DNA from: Richelia sp. CSU_2_1 | GTDB taxonomy: Bacteria; Cyanobacteriota; Cyanobacteriia; Cyanobacteriales; Microcoleaceae | Reading direction: 5' to 3' | Length of the DNA stretch: 35,065 nt | NCBI GenBank assembly: GCA_012034575.1 | Contig: JAAUPF010000058.1 | Location: 1 to 35,065 of the forward strand | Shown: positions 282 to 35,065 of the stretch, piece by piece | Layout: each line of letters starts with the position of its first letter | Position numbering within the stretch: the first letter of the stretch is position 1 | Made by a program: the position numbers and the translations under genes | Notes under the pieces: generated by a model | What the model was told of the DNA's origin: nothing | Databases searched by the model: none | The model's input: the letters and a program-made list of their open reading frames with translations, nothing else

Positions 282-362
282 GGCTGTGCGATAAGTAACC
301 TCTAGATCGAAAATGCCACCAAGCGATAACATTAGCAATAAAACCCGTTTAACAACTGTCAA

Positions 363-566
363 CCCTCAACCCTCAACTATGAAGGAAGAAGGAAGAAGGA
401 AGAGGGGGAGAGGGGGAGAGGGGGAGAGAGGAAGTTTTAAGTTCTAAGTTTTGAATTTTAAATTAAGAACTGTCAATACTCAAAACTCAAAACTCAAAAT
501 TCAAAACTCCTTACCAATTCCCCATTCCCAACTGTCAACTGTCAACTGTCAACTGTCAACTGTTTA
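363..566. repeat. Composite heptamer arrays between the glycosyltransferase and the TPR gene
   Basis: This gap holds several 7-bp-period tracts. On the left are purine-rich GGAAGAA and GGGGGAGA units. In the middle are CTCAAAA units. On the right are about five CAACTGT units ending seven bases before the ATG at 570. The G-rich strand points right in the left half and left in the right half, so it points away from each flanking gene. Confidence 0.85.
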
Positions 567-569
567 ACT

Positions 570-1039
570 ATGGATGAATTATCTATCAAAGCGCTGCTTG
601 AAGACTTAAAAAACTCAGATGAAAGCGTGCGCGATCGAGCAACTGCAAAACTCTGGTATGCTTGGTTCAACCAAAAAGGAGAATACGGGATGCAAATTCT
701 CAGGCGATCGCAAGTTTCGCTAGATGCTGGCGATGTCAGGGGCGCTTTCGATTTGCTGACAAAACTGATCTCGGAAGCGCCTGATTTGCTGAAGCTTGGA
801 ACCGTCGTGCCGTACTTCACTATACCCAAGGAAATTATCAAAAGTCGATTCAGGATTGCGAAACTGTTCTCAAACTAAATCCGGTTCATTTTGGAGCGCT
901 GCACGGTCTGGGTTTGTGTTACGCTGCCCTGGGAGAATACACAAATGCTATTGGCGCTTTTCGCCGCGCTTTGGAAATTCAACCTTTTGCTTTGGTGAAT
1001 CAAAAGTTAATTCTTGAATGTACGGCTCGTTTGAGTTAA
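570..1039 (+). pseudogene. TPR-repeat protein with an internal frameshift
   Basis: Frame 1 starts at 570 (MDELSIKALLEDLKNSDESV) and runs through a helical repeat ending LLTKLISEAPD. After about 785 the family-like sequence continues in another frame: AEAWNRRAVLHYTQGNYQ, then DCETVLKLNPVHFGALHGLG, then AFRRALEIQPFALVNQKL, to a TAA at 1037-1039. Joining the frames gives about 156 residues with two or three TPR units (W/L/G/Y/A/P pattern), the usual architecture of a small conserved cyanobacterial TPR protein. Reading GATTTTGCTGAAGCT instead of GATTTGCTGAAGCT near 785-788 restores one frame, so one T appears to be missing. TPRs mediate protein-protein contacts and the partner is unknown. It may be a true pseudogene or a base-calling artefact. 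Confidence 0.75.
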
Positions 1040-1204
1040 GAAGAAGGCAGAAGGCAGAAGGCAGAAGGCAGAAGGAATAAAGAAGGAAGAATACTTGTGT
1101 AGCAAGCTCTAGATCGAAAATATCAAGCTCAAATCTGAAATTTCAAATCTCAAATCAAAAAAATCCCAAGTCCAAAATCTAAAATCTAAAATCCCAAATC
1201 GCCC
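1040..1204. repeat. Heptamer arrays between the TPR gene and the GT2 gene
   Basis: The left part holds about four AGAAGGC units in a row. The right part holds degenerate CAAATCT and AAATCTA/AAATCCC units running up to the GTG at 1205. No gene or terminator is visible. The units again change strand polarity in the middle of the gap. Confidence 0.8.
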
Positions 1205-2161
1205 GTGCCGAAAATAAGTGTTTGCATTCCTACTTGCAATCGATCGCACTTGCTAACTAGCGCGATCGCCAGCGTGCTCGATCAAACTTATAGAGACTTT
1301 GAACTGATTGTCTGCGACGACGGTTCGACTGACAGCACTCCTGCTTTAATGTCGGAGTTTGTCTGTCGCGGAATTCGCTATATCCGCCACCCGCAACAAA
1401 TCGGTAAAAGCAATAATATGCGATCGGGTTTTGCGGCAGCCAGGGGCGAATATTTTATTAAATTTGACGATGACGATCGCCTGACACCGCAATTTTTACA
1501 AAGAACATCTGCTATTTTAGATAAAAACCCCAATATCGATTTTGTCAGTACGGATCATTGGGCGATCGACATTAACAATAATATTGATGAAAACCAGACT
1601 AAAATCAATTCCCAGCGTTGGGGTCGCACCGAGTTACCAGCGGGAATTATTCAAGATTTGCTGTCAACTGTTTTTGTCAAACAAAGCTTGCAAATCGGGG
1701 CAACTTTATTTCGCCGCGGCGCACTACAAGCAGTAGGATTCCTGCGACCGAATTTGCAAAATTGCGAAGATAACGATTTGTTTGTCCGGCTCGCTATAGC
1801 CGGGAAAAAGTGTTATTATTTGCCGGAATTGTTGATGGAATATCGATTTCATGCAGGACAGCAAGGAGTCGATCGGGCGATTCCCTATTTAGCTGATAAA
1901 TTGCGCTATTTAACCAGCTACGAATTTGATGAAAAAAAGTTAGAAGCAGTCAGACTCAGAAGGATTGCAGAAACTCAATTAGCGTTAGGTTTGCGGCTGA
2001 TTGAGGTGGGCGAAACTGATAAAGGGCGCTTGATGGTCTGGGCGGGCAAATCAATTTCTGAGGCGAAAATGTGGGCGGGTTTGGGATTGTCGCTGCTGCC
2101 GGTGGAGTGGCGCGGGAGGGCTTTTGCGGCGGTGCGGGAATTGTTGAATAGTGCGGAGTAA
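1205..2161 (+). CDS. Family 2 glycosyltransferase (GT-A fold)
   Basis: The 318-residue product is a nucleotide-sugar-dependent transferase with the GT2 layout. It has an N-terminal nucleotide-binding strand (KISVCIPTCNRSHLL), DDGSTD at residues 38-43, and an FDDDD cluster at 87-91 that fits the metal-binding DXD site. NCEDNDLFVRLA, around residue 185, would hold the catalytic base. No transmembrane helix follows, so it is probably a soluble or peripheral enzyme that adds one sugar to a polysaccharide, glycoprotein or glycolipid; the acceptor cannot be told. I chose the GTG at 1205 because it precedes the first strand directly, and no earlier start adds family sequence. The broken GT4 piece nearby suggests a surface-polysaccharide neighbourhood extending left of the window. 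Confidence 0.9.
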   Translation: MPKISVCIPTCNRSHLLTSAIASVLDQTYRDFELIVCDDGSTDSTPALMSEFVCRGIRYIRHPQQIGKSNNMRSGFAAARGEYFIKFDDDDRLTPQFLQRTSAILDKNPNIDFVSTDHWAIDINNNIDENQTKINSQRWGRTELPAGIIQDLLSTVFVKQSLQIGATLFRRGALQAVGFLRPNLQNCEDNDLFVRLAIAGKKCYYLPELLMEYRFHAGQQGVDRAIPYLADKLRYLTSYEFDEKKLEAVRLRRIAETQLALGLRLIEVGETDKGRLMVWAGKSISEAKMWAGLGLSLLPVEWRGRAFAAVRELLNSAE

Positions 2162-2184
2162 GAGATATTAAATAGCTATTATGT

Positions 2185-2190
2185 TATAAT
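2185..2190 (+). promoter_or_regulatory. Possible -10 box for the small membrane protein gene
   Basis: A perfect TATAAT lies 57 bases before the ATG at 2247, in an AT-rich gap, with no recognisable -35 at the usual distance. Inferred only from the hexamer and its position. Confidence 0.35.
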
Positions 2191-2246
2191 AATTTAGACA
2201 GTCAAGCTAAGGCTTATATTTCGATTAAATAATAGGAGGAATTGCC

Positions 2247-2477: not shown

Positions 2478-2594
2478 TAATAATTAAGTATCAAAGCGCT
2501 GCTAATACCCACAATCCACTCAATTAGTCAATCAATTAGTCAAGCAGCTCGATCGACTGTTTCTCCACGAAACAATTCCTAGCAATTAGCATTT

Positions 2595-3470: not shown

Positions 3471-3601
3471 AGGGGCAATTTATTTGTAGGTAATTACCTC
3501 GATCTTCACTTAAGTAAGGTAAAAGCTAATCTGTCTGAGGTGTGATAATTTGGGTAGATAAAAAACTTGAACCTTGTGCTATCTGGATGCGATCGCACTA
3601 A

Positions 3602-4993: not shown

Positions 4994-5037
4994 CAGAAAA
5001 ATGGGCGTAGTGTTAACGGAGGGCACAAACCCTATTT

Positions 5038-5081
5038 TAGATTTTAGATTCAAGATTTTAGATTTTGGATTGCTAAAAAAT
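5038..5081. repeat. ATTTTAG heptamer tract
   Basis: Degenerate ATTTTAG units lie upstream of the ctp start. The TG-rich strand points away from that gene. The same unit recurs near 22905-22930 and 24462-24478. Confidence 0.7.
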
Positions 5082-6069: not shown

Positions 6070-6238
6070 GTTGACAGTTGACAGTTGACAGTTGAGAGTT
6101 GACAGTTGACAGTTGACAGTTGATAGTGCGAGCGTCCCCGCTCGCAAACCAATTACCAATTACCAATTACCAATTACTAATTCCCAATTCCCAATTCCCA
6201 ATTCCCAATTCCCAATTCCCAATTCCCAATTACTAATT
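6070..6238. repeat. Two facing heptamer arrays upstream of the first secreted beta-helix gene
   Basis: The left half holds seven or more AGTTGAC units. The right half switches to ACCAATT units and then about seven AATTCCC units. The left array begins 14 bp after the stop codon at 6056. The G-rich strands point inwards from both flanks. Confidence 0.9.
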
Positions 6239-6329: not shown

Positions 6330-9300
6330 ATGGGTTTCCACAATCTTAACGGGCGGCGATCGCGCAACGGTAACGAAAATATTTTGGTGGTAGGGACACG
6401 GCAATGCCTTGTCCCTACAGGTGTTTGTGCGGGAAAAATAGCTTACTTTTTATTTTTAACTGTTTGTTTTGGTCTGTTTCCCTGCCGCGCGATCGCCCAA
6501 ATTATCCCCGATAGCACTTTAGGTTCGGAAAGTTCGCGTACAGTTCCCGATACTATTAATAATTTGCCGAGCGATCGCATTTCTGGCGGCGCAGTTCGCG
6601 GTTCGAGTTTATTTCACAGTTTCCGTGAATTTAATATCAACGAAGGGCAGGGAGCTTATTTTGAAAATCCGCAAGGTATCTCTAATATTTTTACTCGCGT
6701 TACAGGCGGCAATCGATCTAATATTTTAGGAACTTTAGGAGTTTTAGGAAATAGCAATTTATTCTTAATCAACCCGAAAGGAATTGTCTTCGGTCAGAAT
6801 GCTCGGTTGGATGTGCGCGGTTCTTTTTTAGCGACAAGTGCCGATAGTATTGTATTTAACAACGGCTTAGAATTCAGCGCTACCAACCCGCAAACAGCAC
6901 CATTATTAACAGTTAATATTCCCGTCGGTTTGAGATTTCGCGAAAATCCTGGGGCAATTGTCAATGCTTCGAGAATAACTCAAAATATTCAAGGTCGAGA
7001 AACGCCGATCGGCCTAGCAGTTCCTCCCGGTCAAACGATCGCCCTAATCGGAGGCAATATCAGCTTAGAAAGTGGCAGCGTCAGTGCATTTAGCGGCAAT
7101 ATTTTACTCGGCAGCGTAACGAGTCCGGGATTAGTTAGTTTCGGTTTAAATCCAGGGCTGACATTAAACTACGAAAACATTCAAAATTTCGGCAACATCG
7201 AGCTATCGGGAACTGCAACAGTTCTTGCTAGCGGGCCGGGGGGAGGCGCGATCGCACTTAAAGCCGGAAACGTAACTTTGCGCGATCGATCGAGCCTAGT
7301 ATCCGATACTTTGGGCAACACTGACGGCGGCGGCATCAATATCGAAGCAGCGCGTTTCAGTCTTTTAGATCGATCGTTTGTCGGCTCTAGCACTACCAGT
7401 AGCGGCACTGGAGGCAGTATTAATATTCGGACTGCCGAGAATATCGAACTCAGGGGCATCGGATTTGAGAACTTTCGGCGACTGATTCTCGATCCTGCAG
7501 CAGCACAAAAACCGCCAGATGTCACCGCCAGCGAAAGCAGTATCATAACTGGTACTAGCGGTGCTGGCAGAGCCGGAGATATCTCGATCGACACCAAGCA
7601 ATTAACGCTTCGAGACGGAGCTACCATATTAAATCCCGCTTTCGGTACGGGAGACGGTGGCAGCGTGACAATTAGAGCAGCCGAATCGGTAGAAATCAAT
7701 GCCTCCGGCTTGTTCACCACAACTTTTAATGGAGGAAATGCCGGCAGTATCGCGATCGAAACCGGCCGACTCAGCGTCACCGACGGAGCCATTATCTCGC
7801 CCTCAACTTTTGGTGCCGGAAACAGTGGCAACCTGCTGGTGAAAGCTTCTGACTCGGTAATTGCAGCCAGAGAGCGATCGGACAGTCCCTTGACTACGGC
7901 CCTGGCTGCTAACAGCATCGGCGGCACGGGAAGGGCTGGAAACATTGAAATTAACACCCGTTCCCTGCGCGTAGAAGCGGGCGCTAGTATTTCTTCTTCG
8001 AGCGGCTTAACAACAGCAAGGGGGGTGATTCCTGTGGGGGGGCCCGGCGGCAACATCACTATCGATGCCTCGGAGTCGGTGGAAGTTATCGGTACTGCTC
8101 CCAGCGCTCGCCCTTCTCGAAGTTTGATTGTTGCAGGAACTGCCGGCAACGGTAAAGGCGGGGATGTGACGGTGAACGCCAGACGGGTAATTGTCCGAGA
8201 CGGGGGAGGTATGGGGGCCTCAACTCTGGGGGCGGGACAGGGGGGGACTGTGACTGTCAGTGCGGAGGCGGTGGAAGTAGCGGGCACTACCAGGGACGGG
8301 ATTTTTCCCAGCGTCATCTCCACAGCTTCGGGAGATTTGCTGTACCAAACTTTGTTCGGGGTGCAGCCTCCCTCTGGGGCGGCGGGAAATTTGAATATTA
8401 CGACTGCCCGATTGAGCGTTCGAGACGGAGCGGCGGTTAGTGTTGAGAGTTTTGGCACGGGGCGCGCTGGCAATATCAATGCTGTGACGGATTCGATCGC
8501 CCTTGATAACCGGGGCAGCATCGACGGCAGGACTGTATCGGGTGCTGGAGCTAATATTAACTTGCGATCGGGCGACATCCAATTGCGCCGGGGAAGCCGG
8601 ATTACTACCGATGCGGGGGCTGCTGACGGTGGCAACATCAATATCAATAGCAATACTTTAGTGGCGATCGGGCGCGAAAACAGCGACATCACTGCCAACG
8701 CGCGATCGGCTTTTGGCGGGCGCGTTAACATCAATGTTCCCAACGTGTTAGGTTTTCGGGCTGCCAGTCGCGAACAAGTTAGAAACAGTTTGGGGCTGAG
8801 TGATGCTGAGTTTGCTGCGCTGCAAGTGAGTCCGACTTCTTTAGTTGCCACTAGCGACATCGCTGCGATTTCCCAAAGCGCCGGCCCGGCTTTGCAAGGG
8901 ACTGTAACGTTCAGCTCTTCGGGCGTTAACCCGACTCAAGGTTTAGTAGATCTGCCCCAAAATGTAGTGAACCCAGAGCAGTTAATTACTGCAAATCCCT
9001 GCGATCGAGGAACTCAGAGTACGTTTACCGCCACGGGTAAAGGGGGAGTACCGGCCAGTCCCAACGATGTCCTCAGCAGCGAATCTACCGCGTTTCCGTG
9101 GGTGGAATCGGAGGAAAGCCGGCAGGCAGAAACAGAAAGTAGAAACCAGAGCGCAGCAAGAGTTCCGGAAGCTGAAGGCAGAAATCGGAGAGAAGAGTTG
9201 GAAGACAGAAACAAAGCGGACATTCCGGCGTCTGTTGTTCCGGCTCGGGGTTGGGCTGTCAATGCTAAAGGAGAAGTGATTCTGGTTGGATACAATTCGG

Positions 9301-9356
9301 GTAATGCGGGCGATCGATCGCTTCTCAGACAAAATTCTGGTTGCGTGCTGCGTTAG
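6330..9356 (+). CDS. Filamentous-haemagglutinin-type secreted beta-helix protein (TpsA-like), copy 1
   Basis: This 1008-residue exoprotein is of the two-partner secretion type, exported by an outer-membrane TpsB pore that is not encoded in this window. A long N-terminal leader precedes a hydrophobic core (IAYFLFLTVCFGLF) and the AIA-QIIPD cleavage site near residue 56. The haemagglutination-activity domain follows, with LPSDRISGG, FHSFREFNINEGQGAYF and NLFLINPKGIVFG. Beyond it are many parallel beta-helix coils built on GRAGDI..DTKQLTLRDGA and GGSVTIRAAESVEI. The C-terminal domain carries a conserved Cys891 (ANPC), PARGWAVNAKGEVILVGYN and a final Cys1005 (NSGC). The leader contains an in-frame copy of a palindromic genome repeat (6390-6418). 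Copy 2 follows at 9807. The role is probably adhesion or surface structure. Confidence 0.9.
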   Translation: MGFHNLNGRRSRNGNENILVVGTRQCLVPTGVCAGKIAYFLFLTVCFGLFPCRAIAQIIPDSTLGSESSRTVPDTINNLPSDRISGGAVRGSSLFHSFREFNINEGQGAYFENPQGISNIFTRVTGGNRSNILGTLGVLGNSNLFLINPKGIVFGQNARLDVRGSFLATSADSIVFNNGLEFSATNPQTAPLLTVNIPVGLRFRENPGAIVNASRITQNIQGRETPIGLAVPPGQTIALIGGNISLESGSVSAFSGNILLGSVTSPGLVSFGLNPGLTLNYENIQNFGNIELSGTATVLASGPGGGAIALKAGNVTLRDRSSLVSDTLGNTDGGGINIEAARFSLLDRSFVGSSTTSSGTGGSINIRTAENIELRGIGFENFRRLILDPAAAQKPPDVTASESSIITGTSGAGRAGDISIDTKQLTLRDGATILNPAFGTGDGGSVTIRAAESVEINASGLFTTTFNGGNAGSIAIETGRLSVTDGAIISPSTFGAGNSGNLLVKASDSVIAARERSDSPLTTALAANSIGGTGRAGNIEINTRSLRVEAGASISSSSGLTTARGVIPVGGPGGNITIDASESVEVIGTAPSARPSRSLIVAGTAGNGKGGDVTVNARRVIVRDGGGMGASTLGAGQGGTVTVSAEAVEVAGTTRDGIFPSVISTASGDLLYQTLFGVQPPSGAAGNLNITTARLSVRDGAAVSVESFGTGRAGNINAVTDSIALDNRGSIDGRTVSGAGANINLRSGDIQLRRGSRITTDAGAADGGNININSNTLVAIGRENSDITANARSAFGGRVNINVPNVLGFRAASREQVRNSLGLSDAEFAALQVSPTSLVATSDIAAISQSAGPALQGTVTFSSSGVNPTQGLVDLPQNVVNPEQLITANPCDRGTQSTFTATGKGGVPASPNDVLSSESTAFPWVESEESRQAETESRNQSAARVPEAEGRNRREELEDRNKADIPASVVPARGWAVNAKGEVILVGYNSGNAGDRSLLRQNSGCVLR
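6390..6418. repeat. GTAGGGACACGGCAATGCC palindrome inside a coding sequence
   Basis: The arms GTAGGGACA(C) and (T)TGTCCCTAC flank CGGCAATGCC. Closely related copies are intergenic at 28928-28953 and 29051-29075. Here it is read in frame as part of the signal-peptide region (VGTRQCLVPTG) of the beta-helix protein. Copy 2 lacks it. Confidence 0.85.
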
Positions 9357-9360
9357 AAGG

Positions 9361-9483
9361 AAGAAGGTGGTAGGTGGTAGGTGGTAGGTGGTAGGTGGTA
9401 GGTGGTAGGTGGTAGGTGGTAGGTGGTAGGTACTCAACCTAAAACCTAAAACCTGAATCTGGAAGAAGGAAGAAGGAAGAAAG
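9361..9483. repeat. GGTAGGT heptamer array and flanking GAAGGAA/CCTAAAA tracts
   Basis: About nine consecutive GGTAGGT units begin right after the stop codon of the first beta-helix gene. Short CCTAAAA and GGAAGAA units follow. The rest of the 9357-9806 gap holds the palindrome at 9649-9697 and AT-rich sequence with no recognisable gene. Confidence 0.9.
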
Positions 9484-9806: not shown

Positions 9807-12737
9807 ATGATTTATGACAAACTACCAGTCAGTTTTCGAGCTAGTTTTTTACTTGTTAAATGTTGCCTCTTCCTGTTTGCTTTCCCCGCTGCCGCCCAAA
9901 TCATCCCCGACAGCACTTTAGGTTCGGAAAGTTCTCGTACCGCAGGCGATACTATTAATAACTTGCCGAGCGATCGCATTTCTGGCGGCGCAATTCGCGG
10001 CTCTAGCTTGTTTCACAGTTTTCGAGAATTCAATATCAACGAAGGACAAGGAGCTTATTTTGAAAATCCGCAAGGGATTTCTAATATTTTTACTCGCGTT
10101 ACTGGTGGCAACCGTTCCAATATTTTAGGAACTTTGGGAGTTTTAGGAAGTAGCAATTTATTCTTAATTAACCCCAAAGGTATTGTCTTCGGTCCGAACG
10201 CCCGCTTAGATTTGCGCGGTTCTTTTTTTGCTGCAACTGCTGACAGTATTGTTTTTAATAACGGCTTAGAATTCGGCGCTACCAACCCGCAAACAGCGCC
10301 TTTATTAACAGTTAGCATTCCCGTCGGTTTGAGATTTCGCGAAAATCCCGGAGCAATTGTCAATCGATCGATCGCTACCGGACAAGTAAATTTACCGCCA
10401 TTCCCAGTCCCAATTCCAATTCCTAACAATGTCGGTTTAGCAGTAGATCCGAGTCAAACTTTAGCTCTAATTGGCGGAGAAATTCAACTTGCCGGCGGCA
10501 ATTTAACCGCCAATAACGGACAAATTTTACTCGGCAGTGTTGCCAGTCCCGGTATTGTTAACTTCGCACCAACTCCCCAGGGTCTAACTTTAAACTATAA
10601 CAATATTGCAAATTTCGGCAACATTCAAATATCCGGCGGATCGCTCCTCAACACCAGCGGCAGCGGCGGCGGCAAAGTAGATATCAGAGGTGAAAATGTT
10701 ACTATCAGCGGTTCGCGAATTTACGCGCTGACGTTGGGAAATACCGACGGTAGAGGCATCGATATCAACGCCCGCAACTTGCGAATAGAAGGAAGTTCGC
10801 AACTTTCTACTTTCACTTTAGGCTCGGGGGATGGTGGCAATATTAACCTCCGTGCTGCCGACTCGATAGAAATGAGCGGGCTGGGAATAGAAGGCTACCA
10901 AGAAGTTGTAATTAAATATCTAGTATCGGGAACAACAGACCCTTTTGACCCGCAATTCGTGTTTTTTAACGGTACTGCTGGTGCTGGAAATGGGGGAAGC
11001 GCTAACTTCGATACCCAACGCCTGCTGATGCGGGATGGGGTAGTCGGTAGCGGCATTACTTTCGGCGATGGAAATGGGGGAAATTTGAACATCCGCGCCA
11101 ACACTTTTGAAATGACCGGTTCTGGAATTAACAATGCGACAGCTAAAGATAGTAGCGGTGCAGGAGGAAGGATCGACCTTAACGTTCAACGATTAATTAT
11201 GCGCGATGGTTCTCTGCTAGGCAGCACTAGCTACAGCACTGGCCCGTCGGGAAATATTACCGTTAATGCTGTTGAATCAGTGGAACTGTCCAACTCTGGC
11301 CCGAGAACTGTGGTATCGACCGGCATCAGCACGCTGAGTATCGGTTCAAACGGGAGAGCCGGGGACATTACGGTGGATACCAAGCGGTTGAGCCTTTCTG
11401 GCGGCTCGGCTTTTACGTTGGGAACGGGTGTGTTAGTCGGTAGATTCTTGTTTTCCCAAAGTGGAGGGCCGGCGGGAAACTTAACAGTTAGAGCTAGCGA
11501 ATCGGTAGAAATTGCAGGCATTTCCCAACTTTTGCTTAGCGGAATTCAAAATGCTAGTGGTTTCACTTCTGGAGCTTTGAGTTCGAGTCGGGGCGGGAAT
11601 ATTCGGGTGGATACGCCGAGGTTGACGGTGCGGGATGGGGGAATAATTTCTACGAGTTCTTTGGGTGCGGGAAATGGCGGTGATATTACTCTAAATGCCG
11701 ATCGAATTGATGTAATTGGCAGCGGCAATAACGGTTTATTTGTCAGTGCAATTGACGCATCCGTTGGCAAAGTTTTCGGCACCAATCCCAACGCGACGGC
11801 GAATGCGGGCGAGTTGAATATCAACACTCGCCAACTGAACGTGCGGGATGGGGCTACGGTGACGGTACAAGCTACAGGAACCGGGCGTGCCGGCAATATC
11901 AATATCGTCGCAGATTCGATCGCCCTCGATACCAAAGGTCGCATTGACGGTTCGACAGCATCGGGTGCGGGGGCGAATCTTAACTTGCAATCTCAAAATA
12001 TTCAGTTGCGTCGGGGGAGCCGTATTACTACGGATGCGGGTGCTGCTAGTGGCGGTAACATCAACATCAACAGCGACACTTTAGTTGCCATCGGGCGAGA
12101 AAACAGCGACATTACCGCCAACGCTCGATCGGCCTCGGGCGGTCGGGTTAATATCAACGTGTCTAATGTCTTCGGTTTTAGACCCAGGACTCGCGAACAA
12201 GTCAGAGATAGTTTGGGGCTGACTGACGCTCAATTTGCAGCATTGCAGGTCGATCCTACTTCCCTGCTGCCGACTAGCGACATCGCCGCCATCTCTCAAA
12301 ATGCCGGCCCGGCTTTGCAGGGAACGGTAACGTTTAGTACCTCAGGGGTGAATCCGGCGGGAGGATTGGTGGAACTGCCGCAAAATGTGGTCGATCCGGA
12401 GGGGTTAATTGCTGCAAATCCCTGCGTTCAAGGGGCCCAAAGCGAATTTACTGTCACGGGCAAGGGGGGAGTGCCGCCGAGTCCGAACGATGCCCTCAGC
12501 AGCGAATCTGCGCCGTTTCCGTGGGTGGATGTGGAAGGAACGGGGAGCGAAGCAGCAGGAAGGGAAGAGTTGCGAGGTGAAAAGGTAGAAGCCCAAAATT
12601 CGACTGCTGCAGTAGTTCCGGCTCGGGGTTGGATGAGGAACGATCGGGGGGAATTGATGCTGGTGGGATACAATGCTGCTGGGAATTTGGAGCGCAATCC
12701 CAGGGGTAATTCTGGTTGTTTGCCAAGTTTTAAGTAG
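9807..12737 (+). CDS. Filamentous-haemagglutinin-type secreted beta-helix protein (TpsA-like), copy 2
   Basis: The 976-residue paralogue of the upstream gene lies in the same orientation after a 450-bp gap. The signal peptide is short and typical (FLLVKCCLFLFAFPAAA-QIIPD, cleavage near residue 30). From the cleavage site through about residue 190 it is almost identical to copy 1 (FHSFREFNINEGQGAYF, INPKGIVFG, SIPVGLRFRENPGAIVN). The beta-helix middle diverges strongly (LSTFTLGSGDGGNINLR, DGVVGSGITFGDGNGGNLNI). The last 200 residues converge again (SDITANARSASGGRVNINV, ISQNAGPALQGTVTF). Cys873 (ANPC) and Cys971 (NSGC) match the two cysteines of copy 1; elsewhere the mature chain appears to lack cysteine. 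Probably a surface-exposed or secreted adhesin-like protein needing a TpsB partner encoded elsewhere. Confidence 0.9.
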   Translation: MIYDKLPVSFRASFLLVKCCLFLFAFPAAAQIIPDSTLGSESSRTAGDTINNLPSDRISGGAIRGSSLFHSFREFNINEGQGAYFENPQGISNIFTRVTGGNRSNILGTLGVLGSSNLFLINPKGIVFGPNARLDLRGSFFAATADSIVFNNGLEFGATNPQTAPLLTVSIPVGLRFRENPGAIVNRSIATGQVNLPPFPVPIPIPNNVGLAVDPSQTLALIGGEIQLAGGNLTANNGQILLGSVASPGIVNFAPTPQGLTLNYNNIANFGNIQISGGSLLNTSGSGGGKVDIRGENVTISGSRIYALTLGNTDGRGIDINARNLRIEGSSQLSTFTLGSGDGGNINLRAADSIEMSGLGIEGYQEVVIKYLVSGTTDPFDPQFVFFNGTAGAGNGGSANFDTQRLLMRDGVVGSGITFGDGNGGNLNIRANTFEMTGSGINNATAKDSSGAGGRIDLNVQRLIMRDGSLLGSTSYSTGPSGNITVNAVESVELSNSGPRTVVSTGISTLSIGSNGRAGDITVDTKRLSLSGGSAFTLGTGVLVGRFLFSQSGGPAGNLTVRASESVEIAGISQLLLSGIQNASGFTSGALSSSRGGNIRVDTPRLTVRDGGIISTSSLGAGNGGDITLNADRIDVIGSGNNGLFVSAIDASVGKVFGTNPNATANAGELNINTRQLNVRDGATVTVQATGTGRAGNINIVADSIALDTKGRIDGSTASGAGANLNLQSQNIQLRRGSRITTDAGAASGGNININSDTLVAIGRENSDITANARSASGGRVNINVSNVFGFRPRTREQVRDSLGLTDAQFAALQVDPTSLLPTSDIAAISQNAGPALQGTVTFSTSGVNPAGGLVELPQNVVDPEGLIAANPCVQGAQSEFTVTGKGGVPPSPNDALSSESAPFPWVDVEGTGSEAAGREELRGEKVEAQNSTAAVVPARGWMRNDRGELMLVGYNAAGNLERNPRGNSGCLPSFK

Positions 12738-16446: not shown

Positions 16447-16505
16447 ATAGTTGACAGTTGATTGTTGACAGTTGGGAATTGGTAATTGGTAATCGGTAAT
16501 TGAGA
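16447..16505. repeat. AGTTGAC / TTGGTAA heptamer tract upstream of metH
   Basis: Degenerate AGTTGAC units pass into GGTAATT and GGTAATC units, starting three bases from the metH ATG. Read on the metH strand they contain no stop codon, which creates a spurious N-terminal extension. Confidence 0.85.
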
Positions 16506-16562: not shown

Positions 16563-16616
16563 CCCGAATGCTTCACCTCGGGCTCGCGCGATGGCGACAA
16601 TCCCCGATCCGGAAGT

Positions 16617-16672
16617 TTTGAGTTTTGAGTTGACTTTTGACAGTTGAGAGTTGAGAGTTGAGAGTTGACAGT
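16617..16672. repeat. GAGTTTT / GACAGTT / GAGAGTT tract
   Basis: Degenerate 7-bp units with the G-rich strand pointing right, towards the following gene at 16787. This is the one clear exception to the polarity seen in the other gaps. Confidence 0.75.
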
Positions 16673-21053: not shown

Positions 21054-21925
21054 TCAAGATTTCTTTCTCATCCTTCTATTTGCAGATCTTTTAGGTAATT
21101 GCTTAATTTTGCTTTCCTGGCTTCCCACTTCAAATTCTACCGGATACTCTGGCGATTCTGTTATTTCTGAAGTGGCAATTTCCCCCTCTTCCTCCATTAA
21201 CTGCACCCCTAACTCAGGCATTTCTGACGGCAACTCTTTTATTTCTCGATCGACTTGTGTTTCTATAATTGAGTTTTCTATTTCCTCTAGTGGCAAAAGT
21301 CGATGACTTCTTGACTGATTTCATCGCCTACAATTTCATCTTCGATCGATTGTAGCGGTAAATCTGCTAGCGGGGTTAAAGGCCGATCGACCTCTTGAGT
21401 AATTTCACTTTCTCCGATTTCATCTTCAATTGATTGTAGCGGTAAATCTGCTAGCAAAGCTGAAGGCCGATCGACCTCTTGACCGATAGCACTTTCTATG
21501 ATTTCATTTTCTATTAGTTGCACTGGAGATAGCTGCTGTTGGGCAGAATTCTGTTGGGCAGACAGTAACTCTAATTGAGTGATTAGCAGATTCATCTGTT
21601 CGTTGAGAACGCCGATTTCTCTGCTTTGCTGTTCGATCAGTTTCTCAGCAGTTGCGATCGCCCGATTTCGTTCTAAAATAACTTCATCTTTACTTGCTAA
21701 ATCTAAGGCACTCATTGCTGCTTTAATCAGATTGTAAAAATACGGTTGAGACACATCTACCTGTCTGGCGTCTTGACGGGTTTTGCCGATAAGTCCCACT
21801 TTTTGTCCTTGTTTAACTGCCAAAACTAAACCTAGGTGATTCTTAATTTTTAATTCCTTAGCGCGATCGACTTGAACTAAACTGCAAATATATCTGCGAT
21901 GGTCAAAGTAAAATTCGGCTTTCAT
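21054..21925 (-). pseudogene. Coiled-coil protein with 28-residue acidic repeats, frameshifted
   Basis: From the ATG at 21925 the first frame gives 212 residues. It has a conserved N-terminal domain (FYFDHRRYICSLVQVDRAKE, GLIGKTRQDARQVDVSQPYF), a coiled coil (AEKLIEQQSREIGVLNEQMN) and 28-residue repeats of the form LQSIEDEI.ESEITQEVDRP. It then stops at 21287. The next repeat continues in another frame (LLPLEEIENSIIETQVDREI) to a stop at 21054. At about 21302-21307 the sequence reads CGATGAC where the other repeat copies have CGATCGAC; restoring the missing base joins the frames into one protein of about 290 residues with four or five repeats. The family is unknown to me; the acidic tail could bind a basic partner. 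The N-terminal domain suggests a cytosolic scaffold. Confidence 0.7.
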
Positions 21926-22117: not shown

Positions 22118-22230
22118 TGGGTAATGGGTAATTGGTAATGGGCGAAGCAGAGGGAATTGGTAAATCGACTAATGACCAATGACTATCAACTATCAACTGT
22201 CAACTATCAACTGTCAACTGTCAACTGTTA
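22118..22230. repeat. Facing GGTAATT and ATCAACT/GTCAACT heptamer arrays
   Basis: GGTAATG/GGTAATT units on the left, next to the coiled-coil gene, face ATCAACT/GTCAACT units on the right. The right array overlaps the last codons and the stop of the dual-OB gene. Confidence 0.9.
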
Positions 22231-22894
22231 CATCTTCCGGTAACTCTACCACACCTGCAATCAACTTCCAACAAGGATCGCCCTCTTCTTCCCAATCATC
22301 GGGTCTCCAAGGCATACTCAAACTCACAGAAACCAAACAAACTTTTTGCGGGCGGTAATTCAATTCTAACTTTCTAATAAACACCGGATCGGTAATTGTT
22401 GCCGTCAAAGTTTGACCCTGAGGTGTTGCAATAAATCCTTCCCATTTATTGCCGCCCTCAAATCTTTGACTTACCCGTCTCACCGTAAATTTTACTGCTT
22501 TTACCAGTTGCAAAGTCACTCGATCGACTGCTGGCAGAGACTGCATATAACTCACTGTAACATATCGCAAATCGTTGTGCAAAATGTATTTTTCTCGGCT
22601 GCAATACTGCAACAAATAAGCTGGCGGAACTTTCCCTACTTTTTGCCAATTTCCCGGTAAAACTGAGATATTTTCGCTTTCAAATCCGAAATCCGGTCCT
22701 GTCTTAGCCAAAGGAATTTCTAAAACATCCAATAATGCGGGTTCCATCCTATTTATCAGGCGCATTTCTTTAGGAATTTGACCGTCTGGTAAATCGGAAA
22801 CGGGGCGAATCCAGTTACCTTTAAGCGGATTAATGCCGGCGATACACCTTTCACCGCGTTTCCACGAATTAGCAAGGCAAATTATCCGAGACAT
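22214..22894 (-). CDS. Dual-OB-like domain protein
   Basis: The 226-residue protein starts MSRIICLANSWKRGERCIAG, followed by INPLKGNWIRPVSD, a pattern seen in proteins described as having a dual OB-containing domain, which are predicted to bind nucleic acid or nucleotides. Two beta-rich halves can be seen: residues 1-100 end in ILHNDLRYVTVSY. Residues 120-210 carry VKFTVRRVSQRFEGG, KWEGFIATPQGQTL and VCLVSVSLSMPWR. It is cytosolic with no signal. Two DUF488 genes lie just upstream on the same strand, 94 bp away, and such pairs recur in bacterial genomes. Its last codons (ACAGTTGACAGT) and TGA stop lie inside a heptamer array, so its C-terminus is repeat-derived. The name rests on remembered family pattern and is moderate. 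Confidence 0.65.
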   Translation of the reverse strand: MSRIICLANSWKRGERCIAGINPLKGNWIRPVSDLPDGQIPKEMRLINRMEPALLDVLEIPLAKTGPDFGFESENISVLPGNWQKVGKVPPAYLLQYCSREKYILHNDLRYVTVSYMQSLPAVDRVTLQLVKAVKFTVRRVSQRFEGGNKWEGFIATPQGQTLTATITDPVFIRKLELNYRPQKVCLVSVSLSMPWRPDDWEEEGDPCWKLIAGVVELPEDVTVDS

Positions 22895-22904
22895 AGTGAT
22901 TTTA

Positions 22905-22988
22905 GATTTTAGATTTTAGATTTTAGATTTGGTAATTGGTAATTGGTAATTGGTAATTGGTAATTGGTAACTGTCAACTATCAACTAT
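22905..22988. repeat. ATTTTAG, TTGGTAA and CAACTAT heptamer arrays
   Basis: From left to right: three ATTTTAG units, about seven TTGGTAA units, then AACTGTC/AACTATC units in the opposite polarity up to the end of the DUF488 gene. The repeats fill the whole gap. Confidence 0.9.
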
Positions 22989-24461: not shown

Positions 24462-24660
24462 GATTTTAGATTTTAGATTGATAATTGGTAGTTGGTAGTT
24501 GGTAATTGGTAACTGGTAATTGGTAGTTGGTAATTGGTATCTGCTTTACTGTCATCAGTTCTCAGGAAAATAACGATCGACTATCAACTATCAACTGCCA
24601 ACTGTCAACTGTCAACTCTCAACTCTCAACTATCAACTGTCAACTGTCAACTGTCAACTG
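24462..24660. repeat. Facing TTGGTAG/TTGGTAA and CAACTGT heptamer arrays
   Basis: ATTTTAG and then about eight TTGGTAR units on the left are followed by about fifteen CAACTRT/CAACTCT units on the right, with unrelated sequence between. The right array provides the stop codon of the restored ispE frame. Confidence 0.9.
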
Positions 24661-25603
24661 TCTTCAGAAACAATCCGAATGCCAGTCTTACTAAAGTTTG
24701 CTATCCAAAAATCCAAATCGGGAGAGCGATCGCACTTTTTACTTTAGCCTCAACCTCCAGGGCTGCGGCGCGAGACTCCACCAGCGCGAATACAGTCGGT
24801 CCCGAACCCGACATCATCGCTCCCAAAACAGATACAGACTCAAAAGCCTGTCGCAACTGCAATACTTGTTCGTAAACGGGTAAAGCCACTTTTTCTAAAT
24901 CGTTGTGCAACAGTTGGCCGATTTTCGATCGATCTTTATGGGCGATCGCCCCTACCATCGGCCCCGAATGCAGCCGTTCCCGGCGACACTCCAAATCTTC
25001 TGGCGGGCAATACGTACTGCCGAACTTTTGGCGGTAAGTTTGATACGCCCAAGCCGTAGAAATACTGAGATTGCGGTACTTGGCAAGCACCACACAAAAA
25101 CCGTCCAAATCCGGCAGCGGCGACAGTTTCTCGCCGCGACCCGTTGCCAAAGCCGTCCCGCCAGCAATGCAAAAAGGCACATCCGATCCCAAAGTTGCCC
25201 CCAATTCTTGCAATTCCGATTGCGTCAGGCCCAGCTCCCACAGCAAATCGATCCCTACCAACACCGCCGCTGCATTTGCAGACCCCCCAGCCAGTCCCGC
25301 GGCTACAGGAATCTGCTTGTGAATGACAATCTCGATTCCTCCATATCTGGCTAAAGCATCGGGGAATTGCTTCGCTAGCAAATCCGCCGCCCGGTACGCT
25401 AAATTATTTTTGTCAGGCGGGACTTGGGGGTGATCGCAGCGGACGCGGATCGTATCAGTCCCGATCGGGCGCAAATCGATGCGATCGGCCAAATCGATGC
25501 TTTGAAGTACCATCGCCAACTCGTGATATCCGTCGGGGCGATCGCCGATTATTTCCAAATATAGATTGATTTTTGCAGGTGCTAGTAGAGAATATGAGCG
25601 CAT
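24654..25603 (-). pseudogene. ispE: 4-diphosphocytidyl-2-C-methyl-D-erythritol kinase, C-terminal frameshift
   Basis: IspE phosphorylates CDP-methylerythritol in the MEP isoprenoid pathway (carotenoid, quinone and phytol precursors). The GHMP-kinase sequence is intact for about 290 residues: PAKINLYLEI with Lys11, the glycine-rich ATP loop PVAAGLAGGSANAAAVL (99-115), GSDVPF with Asp142, and MMSGSGPTVFALVE. The frame then ends early at 24701 (ALPIWIFG). Another frame continues PDLDFWIANFSKTGIRIVSE and ends DS-stop at 24654, as IspE C-termini should. One base appears missing beside the HIP1 octamer at 24726-24733. The gene is essential, so either the shortened enzyme works or the base call is wrong. 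It should be read as ispE. Confidence 0.85.
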
Positions 25604-28331: not shown

Positions 28332-28355
28332 CTTTCAGTACACTGCGGGGGTCGG

Positions 28356-28470
28356 TAATTGGTAATCGGTAATCGTTAATCGGTAATCGGTAATCGGTAA
28401 TTGGTAATCGGTAATTGGTAATCAGTAATCGGTAATCGGTAATCGGTAATCAATAATTGGTAATCGGTTA
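28356..28470. repeat. GGTAATC/GGTAATT heptamer array
   Basis: About 15 units of GGTAATC or GGTAATT lie between the dioxygenase stop and the PTOX remnant. All have the G-rich strand pointing right, away from the dioxygenase. The PTOX coding sequence is missing its first half exactly on this side. Confidence 0.9.
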
Positions 28471-30095: not shown

Positions 30096-30152
30096 CATTA
30101 CCAATTATCAATTATCAATTACCAATTACCAATTACCAATTACCAATTACCT
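30096..30152. repeat. ACCAATT/TCAATTA heptamer array before galK
   Basis: About eight units end five bases before the galK ATG at 30157, leaving no room for a normal ribosome binding site. Read on the galK strand the array is free of stops and encodes an apparent N-terminal extension. Confidence 0.9.
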
Positions 30153-31230: not shown

Positions 31231-31378
31231 GTTGAAAGTTGTAGCATTGCGCGCCCTACATCTTCAGCCGGCAATTAGAGACGTACCGATCGACTTAACA
31301 AGCTCGACAGCAGGCTTGCTTGTCGGGCGATAAAATGTATACTTTTGTCAAGTTAAACAAATATTTTTTGATTAATCC

Positions 31379-31383
31379 AGGAG
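31379..31383 (+). promoter_or_regulatory. Ribosome binding site that sets the glgA start
   Basis: AGGAG lies eight bases before the ATG at 31392. It decides for this start over the in-frame one at 31320, whose extra 24 residues precede the conserved KAGGLGD-containing domain. Confidence 0.75.
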
Positions 31384-31391
31384 CCAGCGGA

Positions 31392-32867
31392 ATGTACATC
31401 GTACAAATTGCCTCGGAGTGCGCCCCCGTTATCAAAGCAGGAGGTTTGGGCGACGTAGTTTACGGTTTGAGTCGCGAGTTACAGAATTCCGGCCACTGCG
31501 TCGAGATTATTCTGCCCAAGTACGACTGCATGAGGTACGACCATATTTGGGGACTTCACGATGCCTATCGAGATTTGGCTGTGCCCTGGTACGGTGGCGA
31601 AATCTTTTGCGATGTTTTCTGCGGCTGGGTACACGGGCAATTGTGTTTTTTCATTGAACCTAAATCGCAAGATAACTTCTTTAATCGCGGCTGTTATTAC
31701 GGCTGCAATGATGATAATATGCGGTTTGCTTTTTTCAGCAAAGCAGCTTTGGAATTTTTGCTCAGAAGCAACAAACGTCCCGATATTATTCACTGTCACG
31801 ACTGGCAAACTGGTTTGGTTCCAGTCCTGCTGTTTGAAATATATAAATACAATTGGATGGAATACCAGCGCGTCTGCTATACCATTCACAATTTCAAACA
31901 TCAAGGCATGGGCGGCACGGATATTCTGCAAGCAACGGGTTTGTACAGGCCGGAGTATTATTTTCAGTACGATCGCCTGCGGGATAATTTCAATCCGTTT
32001 GCGATTAACTTTATGAAAGGTGGCATTAATTACTCGAATTTTGTAACTACTGTTTCGCCGCATCATGCTTGGGAAGCTCATGTAGGCGAGTTTGGCTACG
32101 GTTTGGGACATACTTTGCATTTGCATCAAGCGAAGTTTCGCGGAGTGCTCAACGGCATCGATTACGATGTGTGGAATCCCGAAACAGATCGCTACATTCC
32201 CCACCACTACACAGCAGAAGATTTGGCAGGAAAAGCTCAAACTAAAAAAGCTTTGCGCGATCGGCTGATGCTGCAAGATGCTGACAAGCCAATTGTGGCT
32301 TTTATCGGTCGTTTGGACGAGCAAAAAGGCGTGCATCTCGTCCACCATTCTATTTACTATTGCCTCGAAAGAAACGCGCAGTTCGTACTTTTAGGTTCGG
32401 CGACAGAATCGGGAATTAACGCGCATTTCCAGCATGAAAAACAGTTTTTGAATGACAATCCTAACTGTCATTTAGAATTGGGTTTTAATGAGGAACTGTC
32501 ACACTTAATTTATGCGGGTGCGGATATAATTGTAGTTCCGAGCAATTACGAACCCTGCGGGCTGACTCAGACGATAGGCATGAGGTACGGTACTGTACCT
32601 GTAGTGCGCGGAGTTGGCGGTTTGGTGAATACGGTGTTCGATCGCGATTACGATACCCGCCATTTGCCAGAAGAACGCAACGGTTACGTATTTTATCAAA
32701 GCGATTATTACGCTTTAGAATCGGCGCTCGATCGGGCGATCGGACTGTGGGAATACTATCCTAAAGAGTTTGAAAAATTGGTGGTTCAAGGGATGAATTG
32801 CGACTACTCGTGGAAGTATCCAGCGAAGGATTATGTGGAAATTTACGAGTTCATCCGACATAAATAA
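31392..32867 (+). CDS. glgA: Glycogen synthase, ADP-glucose type, cyanobacterial
   Basis: GlgA extends alpha-1,4-glucan chains from ADP-glucose (GT5, GT-B fold). The 491-residue product begins MYIVQIASECAPVIKAGGLG, with the KAGGLGD donor site (Lys15), and continues with IHCHDWQTGLVPVLL, YTIHNFKHQGMGG, VTTVSPHHAWEA, GVLNGIDYDVWNPETD and IGRLDEQKGVHLV. The C-terminal active site is SNYEPCGLTQ and GMRYGTVPVVRGVGGLVNT. The length matches cyanobacterial GlgA proteins, which often occur in two copies; this looks like the GlgA2-type sequence (HHSIYYCLERNAQFVLLG), an assignment made from memory. It lies 161 bp after galK in the same direction and could share its transcript. Confidence 0.95.
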   Translation: MYIVQIASECAPVIKAGGLGDVVYGLSRELQNSGHCVEIILPKYDCMRYDHIWGLHDAYRDLAVPWYGGEIFCDVFCGWVHGQLCFFIEPKSQDNFFNRGCYYGCNDDNMRFAFFSKAALEFLLRSNKRPDIIHCHDWQTGLVPVLLFEIYKYNWMEYQRVCYTIHNFKHQGMGGTDILQATGLYRPEYYFQYDRLRDNFNPFAINFMKGGINYSNFVTTVSPHHAWEAHVGEFGYGLGHTLHLHQAKFRGVLNGIDYDVWNPETDRYIPHHYTAEDLAGKAQTKKALRDRLMLQDADKPIVAFIGRLDEQKGVHLVHHSIYYCLERNAQFVLLGSATESGINAHFQHEKQFLNDNPNCHLELGFNEELSHLIYAGADIIVVPSNYEPCGLTQTIGMRYGTVPVVRGVGGLVNTVFDRDYDTRHLPEERNGYVFYQSDYYALESALDRAIGLWEYYPKEFEKLVVQGMNCDYSWKYPAKDYVEIYEFIRHK

Positions 32868-32869
32868 AC

Positions 32870-33055
32870 AGTTGACAGTTGACAGTTGATAGTTGATAGT
32901 TGACAGCGAGAGTTTGTCATAGTGCGATCGAACTGTAGGTGCGCATTGCGCACCTTACTTTATGCCTATATCTTTAGGAATAAATCGACTCTCTCTTCTT
33001 CCCTCTTCCCTCTTCCTTCTTCCCTCTTCCTTCTTCCCTCTTCCTTCTTCCTTCA
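32870..33055. repeat. CAGTTGA and CTTCCCT heptamer arrays after glgA
   Basis: About four CAGTTGA/TAGTTGA units start right after the glgA stop. After 90 bp there are about nine CTTCCCT/CTTCCTT units on the right. A GGTGCGCATTGCGCACC palindrome lies at 32937-32953, a third member of that family. The remaining 33056-33194 stretch shows no gene. Confidence 0.85.
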
Positions 33056-33194
33056 ATAAAGTTTTCCGCAAAGATGCGTGGGGGGAAAGTACGAAAACAA
33101 TTTGTAGGGTTTTCTTGGCTGCCGTTCCTGAGGGCGATCGTCCAAGATAAAAGTATAGAAATTCAACGGCCGGTTTTCACCCGCCCTACAAAAA

Positions 33195-33566: not shown

Positions 33567-33583
33567 TTCGATTTGTTATTGAC

Positions 33584-33620
33584 AGCAAGGCAATCTCAGA
33601 TTCTGGGATTGCTTTGTTTT
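33584..33620 (+). terminator. Rho-independent-type terminator after the DUF4342 gene
   Basis: GCAATCTCAGA pairs with TCTGGGATTGC, followed by TTTGTTTT, beginning 18 bases past the stop codon. Confidence 0.7.
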
Positions 33621-33735
33621 AGCTTTTAATTCGACTCTCACAATCTCGTTACCGAGCTGCTCTAAATTCTGCTAATTTAAGTTGTTTTTGCATGAGATAT
33701 GTTCAAACACCAGAGGTTAGAGGTAACGTAAATCT

Positions 33736-34209
33736 ATGTACTTAGATCGAGTCAAAAACCAACTGATAGAACTAAAACTCGCTAGGCAAGATGAACTGGT
33801 AGGCTGTACTCGCGATGAGGTGAGAGCGATCGAGCAAAATTTAGGTATTTCTGAGCCCCTTGCGTACCAAGAATTTCTATTGTCGATGGGATGCGGGGCT
33901 GGTAAATTCTTACGTGGTTCGGACTGTTTCTTCGATCGACTATTTCAAATTCAAGAATGGGCGATCGACCTCTTACAGGAAAATAATTTTCCTCGCTCTC
34001 TACCAGACGATGCCTTTATTTTCTTGATGCACCAAGGTTATCAATTCAGCTTTTTTAGATTGTCAGAAGGTGCAGATCCCCCGACTTACTCATACTGTGA
34101 AGGGACAGATCGAACTTCTTTCATTAAAAGCCATGAAAGTTTTAGTGAGTTTTTGGCTGCAGAGGTAGAAATTCACGCCAAGTATTTAATGGCTCTGGCT
34201 AACAAGTAA
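33736..34209 (+). CDS. SMI1/KNR4 (SUKH) family protein
   Basis: The 157-residue cytosolic protein carries the SUKH signature: GCTRDEVRAIEQNLGISEPL, AYQEFLLSMGCGAGKFLRGS, and a later PDDAFIFLMHQGYQFSFFRL. Bacterial SUKH proteins are mostly immunity proteins of contact-dependent or polymorphic toxin systems, or regulators. No toxin is visible here, so it is an orphan or a solitary regulatory copy. It converges on the oxygenase gene with only five bases between the stop codons. The fold assignment is good and the role is inferred. Confidence 0.82.
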   Translation: MYLDRVKNQLIELKLARQDELVGCTRDEVRAIEQNLGISEPLAYQEFLLSMGCGAGKFLRGSDCFFDRLFQIQEWAIDLLQENNFPRSLPDDAFIFLMHQGYQFSFFRLSEGADPPTYSYCEGTDRTSFIKSHESFSEFLAAEVEIHAKYLMALANK

Positions 34210-34214
34210 TGACA

Positions 34215-34817
34215 TTACTTGATTTTTGCCTTCGCAGCCCTAGACTCGATCGCGAATTCTGGAATATCTGCCAATTCTCGATCGTCCAAAACGTACTGTT
34301 CGCAAACTAGACTCAAACGAGTGCCGCCAGTTTTAACTGCATTCACAGAATGGGTTAAATCTCCTTGAAAATACAGCAGCGAGTTGGCTTCCGGCTGAAT
34401 TTTACCGACTTGTTTTTTGCTGCTGCGCAAAACCAATTCTCCCCCTTCCAAGTCCGGCGGAACTTGTACGTACAAAACGCTGACGGTCGCCGGAGGTGCA
34501 ACTGTTTTGCAGTACGATCGCAAAGATCGATCGATATGCGGATCGACGCGGGAACCTGCTTTCAACAGCAAAGGATTCAGGTAAAATGCGTTGCAATCCG
34601 GCTGTAAAGCTCGGTCTAGATAAGGCTTGAAAAAAGGAAATTTTTGTTCGACTTGGGCAACGGACGATCGCCCAAAAACTACGGAAAATCCTTTGGTGCT
34701 GATAAAGTCGCGATTGAGGTTGTTGGTGGCAAGATAAGGAGAAGCTAAAATTGCTCCTCGCAAGTCGTTAAGGTAGTCGATCGAAAAAGCATGAGGATAT
34801 TTTTGATAGTATTTCAA
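34215..34817 (-). CDS. 2OG-Fe(II) oxygenase, prolyl-4-hydroxylase-like
   Basis: The 200-residue enzyme uses 2-oxoglutarate, oxygen and Fe(II) to hydroxylate an unknown substrate. The iron triad is visible as His94 and Asp96 (VDPHIDRS) plus His156 (GDLTHSVNAV), with Arg167 (GGTRLSLVCEQ) for 2-oxoglutarate. The core is a double-stranded beta-helix (VSVLYVQVPPDLEGGELVLR). The length fits small bacterial and phage prolyl-hydroxylase-like members. The C-terminal 25 residues are charged. The start at 34817 is just before a heptamer array, which lies in its leader. The substrate could be a protein or a small molecule; context gives no hint. Confidence 0.85.
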   Translation of the reverse strand: MKYYQKYPHAFSIDYLNDLRGAILASPYLATNNLNRDFISTKGFSVVFGRSSVAQVEQKFPFFKPYLDRALQPDCNAFYLNPLLLKAGSRVDPHIDRSLRSYCKTVAPPATVSVLYVQVPPDLEGGELVLRSSKKQVGKIQPEANSLLYFQGDLTHSVNAVKTGGTRLSLVCEQYVLDDRELADIPEFAIESRAAKAKIK

Positions 34818-34827
34818 GGCTCTATAA

Positions 34828-35065
34828 TTGGTAATTGGTAATTGGTAATTGGTAATTGGTAATTGGTAATTGGTAATTGGTAATTGGTAATTGGTAATTG
34901 GTAATTGGTAAGGAGTTTTGAGTTTTGAGTTTTGACCGGGAACGCATTCACAATGGTAACTTAAAACTCCCCCTCATCCCTCATCCCTCATCCTTCTTCC
35001 TTCTTCCCTCATCCCTCATCCCTCATCCTTCTTCCCTCATCCTTCTTCCCTCATCCCTCATCCCT
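34828..35065. repeat. TTGGTAA, GAGTTTT and CCTCATC/CCTTCTT heptamer arrays
   Basis: About twelve TTGGTAA units begin 11 bases beyond the oxygenase ATG. They are followed by three GAGTTTT units. At the window's end about twelve CCTCATC/CCTTCTT units run in the opposite polarity, presumably facing a gene beyond the window. Confidence 0.95.

Follow-up and report, generated by a model that had tools for sequence, protein, structure and literature searches.

Seven-base tandem repeats close to gene ends in a cyanobacterial genome are nearly always oriented outward

The gaps between genes in the stretch of DNA analysed here (the window: contig JAAUPF010000058.1 of Richelia sp. CSU_2_1, assembly GCA_012034575.1, 35,065 nucleotides) carry tandem arrays of 7-bp units. 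Close to a gene end these arrays are polar, and their G-rich strand reads away from the gene, an orientation that we call outward. In the window's own genome, 203 arrays lie at most 25 bp from an end of a called gene; 195 of them are outward (binomial p about 1e-47), with 66/66 at starts and 129/137 at stops. Such a polarity had been claimed in an earlier note on the window, and it is borne out. In the window itself 14 of the 15 arrays within 25 bp are outward (strict detector; gene ends refined by hand from open reading frames (ORFs) and conservation), one of the 14, 24592-24662, counting only if the gene end is set at the array and not at the ORF stop 24701.

Orientation of the arrays at gene ends

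The genome comprises 7.27 Mb in 370 contigs (86% complete, 6.6% contamination). The genome-scale set consists of 81 pieces covering 1.28 Mb of it, with 507 arrays from a period-7 detector and 808 genes from an in-house ORF caller, not from curated annotation. It is a non-random sample, as many contigs were chosen because an array search listed them. The distance count excludes 10 arrays within called genes and 68 whose gap is cut by the end of a piece. Of the 429 closed-gap arrays left, 422 could be scored after dropping those with zero skew or equidistant from genes. Arrays are concentrated at gene ends: 203/422 lie within 25 bp, where 93 would be expected if they were spread uniformly over these gaps. 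The comparison with shuffled orientations that the earlier note had proposed gave a maximum of 127 outward arrays in 10,000 shuffles. Nearby arrays occur at 195 distinct gene ends; 187 of these ends are fully concordant, and several of the other eight involve composites, overlapping gene calls or the AGTCATC family.

The orientation fades with distance. Outward arrays number 42/52 at 26-50 bp, 45/76 at 51-100 bp and 41/91 beyond 100 bp. Skew independent of the nearest gene end, the outcome set against the claim in the earlier note, was thus not found near genes; it was found beyond about 100 bp. The polarity is a local rule anchored at gene ends (about 25-50 bp) and not a rule of left and right gap halves.

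Neighbouring arrays overall follow the order G-rich then C-rich in 94 cases and the reverse in 7. By gap type the counts are 58:3 (tandem), 15:2 (convergent) and 11:0 (divergent), so that the claimed independence from gene orientation was upheld. The order within a gap arises because of the gene-end rule. An order rule independent of genes initially looked strong (73:6, and 24:4 away from called genes), but it did not survive the exclusion of weak ORFs; where both genes and weak ORFs are over 50 bp from the pair, the order is 7:3, which is not significant. The corollary that leaders carry the G-poor strand and trailers the G-rich strand is supported.

Two simple causes were rejected. The same heptamer lies on both sides of a gap in 1/94 pairs (10.1 expected), in agreement with the earlier view that inverted duplication does not explain the pattern. 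Named loci show the opposite trend (4/27 against 0.6 expected), and we claim no general avoidance. The compositional skew of ordinary intergenic DNA is too weak to be a general cause, with an outward skew of just 0.02-0.12 within 50 bp of genes.

Strand preference of individual heptamers

Period 7 stands apart from other periods. In the first 0.99 Mb there are 399 period-7 arrays and 1-17 for each of the periods 4-6 and 8-11; 391 of the 399 lie in gaps and 8 in called genes. As multiple-copy, mainly intergenic tandem 7-bp units, they are short tandemly repeated repetitive (STRR) sequences of the cyanobacterial kind, as the earlier note had taken them to be. The commonest units of the genome are ACAGTTG, AATTGGT, AAGAAGG and AGATTTT. 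TTGACAG triplets occur in 28/28 other genus genomes examined, with 7 to 1218 overlapping matches each.

Each heptamer has its own outward strand. Own, named and other genomes together have 17 units that occur at least three times, and these keep their strand in 257/267 arrays. The outward-to-inward counts are 83:1 for ACAGTTG, 33:2 for AATTGGT, 23:1 for AGATTTT, 22:1 for AAGAAGG and 18:1 for AGTTGAT. Of 16 units, 13 have more G than C on the outward strand, 3 have G = C, and none has less G than C. Two units with G = C obey fully. ATTTGTC is outward in 7:0. AGTCATT is outward in 18:0 over all sets: 8:0 comes from eight own-genome loci, and another 8 arrays come from the named Microcoleus loci, where about seven share one orthologous gene end. 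Since these units obey, G-richness is a correlate and the heptamer itself sets the strand. Being G-rich, the defining property in the earlier description, holds for most units and is not what defines the rule.

The polarity is equally strong in two-copy and long arrays. It extends to lone 9-mers of the units, which amount to 1.3 copies. Those that lie at most 25 bp from a gene end and over 30 bp from the nearest array are outward in 60/72 cases; letter-permuted control words are outward in 148/279, and the unit 9-mers are about three times commoner than these controls. Beyond 100 bp from genes, lone unit 9-mers are outward in 121/220. The lone words may be seeds or remains of arrays.

We also looked at the internal structure of the arrays, where decay would hint at polar growth. 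Mismatches under strict settings show no consistent decay towards one end (90 vs 89). A lenient setting gives more mismatches at the outer end, probably from merging arrays of different units. Adjacent arrays of the same polarity have a preferred succession; reading outward from the gene in the 81 pieces, ACAGTTG is followed by AATTGGG in 8:0 and by AATTGGT in 4:0.

tRNA genes, other genomes and orthologues

Where a tRNA gene lies within 25 bp of an array and any protein gene is farther off, the array is outward in 6/6 cases (159 distinct tRNA contexts) and in 3/3 from two further genomes (64 tRNAs). Two or three of these nine arrays are orthologous, which leaves about six sites, one at a 5' end. 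At 51-120 bp from tRNA genes, 2/5 are outward. One array between two tRNA genes points away from the nearer one, at 9 bp, and towards the other, at 36 bp. Start and stop codons are absent from tRNA genes, which nevertheless obey, so translation is not required. Dense clusters of about 20 or more tRNA genes in a few kb were seen at L343 (own genome), L355 (genome G016) and L387 (genome G004).

The rule holds in other genomes. The closest named relatives of the glgA-like gene of the window are Microcoleus and Tychonema, and through such named relatives the genus for our comparisons was assigned as Microcoleus. At 58 named loci from more distant cyanobacteria, all 32 arrays within 25 bp of genes are outward, and neighbouring arrays run G-rich then C-rich in 12 cases and the reverse in 3. 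The outward counts are 20/24 at 22 closer named loci and 46/52 in stretches from 15 relatives; the named Microcoleus loci and the genus genomes appear to overlap and are not independent sets.

Orthologues show units being exchanged while the polarity stays. After the stop of the glgA-like gene, 13/28 orthologues have an array within 8 bp, built from five different units, all in the unit's usual outward orientation. Downstream of the stop at 9356, AGGTGGT in the window corresponds to a TTGACAG-type (GTTGACA) array of equal polarity in the related genome G007. An AGATTTT array lies just upstream of one gene in 9/12 orthologues and upstream of a second gene in 6/26 (strict detector), with constant orientation at both. 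Genome G007 has partial copies where the window has arrays, for example at 529-563 and 22182-22228.

Arrays and genes of the window

Tandem Repeats Finder, with the bases checked by reading, confirmed period-7 arrays at the tracts named in the earlier note. Two tracts depart from its scheme: 359-377, on the left side of a gap, is C-rich, and 9436-9481 changes from C-rich to G-rich. The main arrays of the window are as follows.

529-563, minus strand: CAACTGT (ACAGTTG family), outward; ends 6 bp upstream of a plus-strand gene whose ATG is at 570; one partial copy in G007.
1042-1075, plus strand: AGAAGGC array, outward; 2 bp past the TAA at 1037-1039.
1174-1193, minus strand: AAAATCT (AGATTTT family) tract, outward; precedes a gene starting at 1205 or 1250.
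5034-5071, plus strand: ATTTTAG array; lies about 40 bp upstream of the minus-strand gene that ends at 4993; unit and orientation identical in G007.
6070-6127, plus strand: GTTGACA array, outward; 13 bp past the stop at 6056.
6148-6238, minus strand: CCAATTA/CCCAATT array, C-rich; lies in the right half of its gap; both genes about 91 bp away.
9365-9431, plus strand: AGGTGGT array, outward; 8 bp past the stop at 9356.
9436-9481, no single strand: AACCTAA (C-rich, short) then GGAAGAA (G-rich); local exception to the left/right order.
16449-16500, plus strand: TTGACAG/TTGGTAA array; a few bp from the start at 16443 of a minus-strand metH-like gene; with the strict detector it begins at 16472, 28 bp away.
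16614-16668, plus strand: the exception of the earlier note; G-rich strand towards the right gene, at least 118 bp off; genes 118-193 bp away.
22182-22228, minus strand: ACTGTCA array, outward; overlaps the stop of the minus-strand gene 22214-22894.
22898-22930, plus strand: GATTTTA array, outward; 3 bp from a minus-strand gene start; unit kept upstream in 9/12 orthologues.
22931-22970, plus strand: TTGGTAA array on the far side of that GATTTTA array; faces the next gene, 18 bp away; extra in the window.
22969-22988, minus strand: AACTATC tract, short, outward; against the gene starting at 22989.
24462-24479, plus strand: GATTTTA array, outward; 7 bp from the start of the minus-strand gene ending at 24454; position conserved in the genus.
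24480-24539, plus strand: ATTGGTA array; adjoins the far side of the preceding array.
24592-24662, minus strand: ACTGTCA array, outward; 3' end of the next minus-strand gene; supplies a TGA in the conserved frame.
28354-28451, plus strand: TCGGTAA array, outward; 22 bp past the stop at 28331.
30097-30151, minus strand: ATTACCA array, outward; 5 bp before the galactokinase-like gene at 30157.
32868-32903, plus strand: ACAGTTG array, outward; directly past the stop of the glgA-like gene 31335-32867.
32997-33054, minus strand: TCTTCCC array, C-rich; right part of the gap, 129-140 bp from genes.
34825-34935, plus strand: TAATTGG array, outward, then GAGTTTT; 7 bp from the gene end at 34817.
34971-35065, minus strand: CCCTCAT array, C-rich; runs to the contig end.

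The lone array that is inward within 25 bp is 22931-22970, and the short outward AACTATC tract separates it from the next gene. Beyond 25 bp the rule no longer holds by nearest gene in the window (5/15 arrays outward), although the left-G/right-C form fits several of these arrays. The tract at 16617-16672, singled out earlier as an exception, does have the opposite orientation, but it lies 118-193 bp from genes, outside the zone of the rule. At 24592-24703, array-less species read about 11 codons further, and the window's longest ORF there (24701-25603) terminates in a different frame.

Ten window proteins were scanned against Pfam. The matches include a glycosyltransferase, an S41 peptidase, two TPS-secretion proteins, a methionine synthase, an ethylene-receptor-like kinase, a galactokinase and a starch synthase. 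The metH-, glgA- and galactokinase-like genes are among those flanked by arrays. The two adjacent proteins with a TPS secretion domain (6330-9356 and 9807-12737) are similar to each other. The plus-strand gene 570-1039 switches frame partway and is frame-shifted in the assembly (sequencing error or pseudogene). An 84-bp tandem repeat of 2.2 copies (21328-21515) lies inside the minus-strand ORF 21287-21925. Hairpins stand between the paired arrays of a gap at 6130-6147 (GCGAGCG...CGCTCGC) and 32920-32950 (GGTGCGC...GCGCACC), and similar ones occur at gaps in relatives. An Rfam scan of the window gave no matches.

Possible causes of the polarity

We tentatively favour the reading that the period-7 arrays beside genes are strand-fixed gene-flank elements which turn over in place and whose orientation is filtered at gene boundaries; we regard it as plausible, if not quite probable. 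Heptamer words at gene ends would lengthen and shorten by slippage, mutate, and be replaced in place with the strand kept. Inward arrays or words next to a gene would be eliminated, their orientation being harmful near the boundary through the DNA or through the transcript. In its transcript form, such a filter would act for a G-poor leader and a G-rich trailer. The near-absolute orientation within 25 bp, its randomness beyond about 100 bp and the turnover of units under constant polarity support this reading. So do its sameness in all gap types and at tRNA ends, the strand fixed per unit, the obedience of two-copy arrays and lone words, the seed-like copies in G007 and the concentration of arrays at gene ends.

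Several points weigh against this reading. It names no molecular agent, and the trailer side offers no obvious selective reason. The units with G = C obey without a compositional bias, so a purely compositional filter is insufficient. Short arrays and lone words may be remnants, so that the independence from length is no proof of orientation at birth, and the seed-like copies in G007 may equally be contracted arrays. One orthologue (L174) has AATGACT outward before the glgA start, opposite to that unit's usual strand. The TAACTGA repeats of a Microcystis sample in PMC4679880 have no single orientation.

The main rival is polar growth by end healing, which we consider unlikely. Here, breaks in gaps would be extended by telomere-like, strand-specific 3' synthesis and then joined, the strand made pointing away from genes; as an added step, resection would halt at genes because deeper loss is lethal. 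This fits polarity at both gene ends and at tRNA genes, a fixed strand per unit and different units on the two sides of a gap. It also fits far-side neighbours that abut with equal polarity (18/21 at 0-3 bp) and same-polarity composites built in order, such as the ACAGTTG-AATTGGG succession. Flank conservation is 0.74 on the base side (n = 35) and 0.57 on the tip side (n = 40), values that are pseudo-replicated and confounded by gene miscalls. Two observations speak against end healing: the loss of order in pairs far from genes, with random orientation beyond 100 bp, and the absence of Ku from 29 genus genomes (0/29, control genome positive; no other enzyme candidate was searched for). A narrower form is more doubtful still. 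In it the arrays would be caps that a bacterial counterpart of telomere addition, with one template per heptamer, synthesises strand-specifically on the 3' ends of chromosome breaks; repeated breakage would have eroded the gaps to the boundaries of protein and tRNA genes and left outward caps.

Selection on translation signals would let the outward strands provide stops after genes and keep start- and Shine-Dalgarno-like words out of leaders. Many outward units do hold a stop codon, 63 arrays of the own genome overlap a gene stop, starts obey in 66/66, and the array 24592-24662 supplies a TGA where array-less relatives read on. However, units that are stop-free on both strands obey as well (starts 17/17, stops 16/17), and a comparison of stops over 16 units comes out for the outward strand in 8, even in 6 and against it in 2. 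The tRNA genes obey in 9/9, so translation signals alone cannot be the cause; with the stop-free units, they rule out start and stop codons as a general cause, and we judge this explanation improbable. An account by promoter direction, in which the units resemble -35 boxes (TTGACA) and arrays firing into a gene are eliminated, is very improbable. ACAGTTG holds a perfect outward TTGACA, and the -35 match favours the outward strand in 7/16 units and opposes it in none. The other 9/16 units tie, including AAGAAGG (22:1) and AGTCATT (18:0), so -35 direction was rejected as a general cause; in AGATTTT, moreover, the inward strand carries the better -10 match. An effect of G-rich DNA or RNA through quadruplexes or R-loops, which Rehm et al. 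considered for GGGNATC repeats, would agree with the G excess of 13/16 outward strands. It conflicts with ACAGTTG and AGATTTT, which are among the commonest units and have no GG run, with the obedience of units with G = C, and with two-copy arrays and lone words obeying as strongly as long arrays. The GG-less units and the absence of a length effect rule out quadruplexes as a general cause, and we give this account hardly any weight. Least credible of all is an artefact or shared ancestry, that is, copies of a few old arrays or a bias in gene calling or assembly. The AGATTTT arrays beside two genes are indeed conserved across the genus, the gene models are in-house and the assembly is in 370 pieces. 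Against this, many units obey at 195 different gene ends (187 fully concordant), the 58 distant loci give 32/32, and a published form of the rule comes from the finished genomes of Xanthomonas and Nostoc (PMC4692102).

A near-absolute, unit-specific orientation anchored at gene ends, tRNA genes included, is a strong constraint on any account of heptamer function or origin. It is also a caution for gene callers, as arrays frequently overlap or supply stop codons.

Comparison with known repeats

STRR heptamers in cyanobacteria are said to go back to Mazel et al. in 1990. The arrays described here resemble them in being 7-bp tandem repeats between genes of filamentous cyanobacteria, and the STRR passages of PMC2670836 deal with hairpins and transcript stability, with no polarity mentioned there. 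Heptamers are described in PMC6344855 as the most abundant intergenic tandem repeats across a wide range of prokaryotes, with no clear functional clue.

The earlier note took the polarity to be undescribed. It had been described for one family: according to Rehm et al. 2015 (PMC4692102), intergenic G-rich GGGNATC/GGGGA(C/T)T repeats in Xanthomonas and Nostoc sp. PCC 7120 lie almost exclusively nearer the 5' neighbouring ORF, whatever its orientation. Besides Rehm et al., our literature search, which left most subscription papers outside its coverage, found no description of such a polarity. The heptamer arrays here are likewise intergenic and have the identical polarity. Within about 50 bp, the G-rich strand begins at the nearest ORF, in any ORF orientation, in 237/255 arrays. 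They differ from that single quadruplex-capable family in comprising many units, most without GGG runs and some stop-free or with G = C; the commonest units, ACAGTTG, AATTGGT, AAGAAGG and AGATTTT, match neither GGGNATC nor GGGGAYT.

A second parallel is the set of TAACTGA direct repeats found in Beggiatoaceae, Cyanobacteria and Bacteroidetes (MacGregor 2015, PMC4679880), where 147/170 sets in the BOGUAY genome point towards a start. These are also intergenic heptamers with a fixed orientation just upstream of start codons. They differ in that translational control is proposed for them, few sets lie near stops and the Microcystis sample is mixed. TAACTGA-type units are rare in our genome, and its outward units have other sequences. 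As a further difference from the work of Rehm et al., the rule was tested here against tRNA genes, distance and orthologues. What is new, as far as our literature search reaches, is the extension to many other units, including those with G = C, the law of distance, the tRNA genes and the replacement of units under constant polarity.

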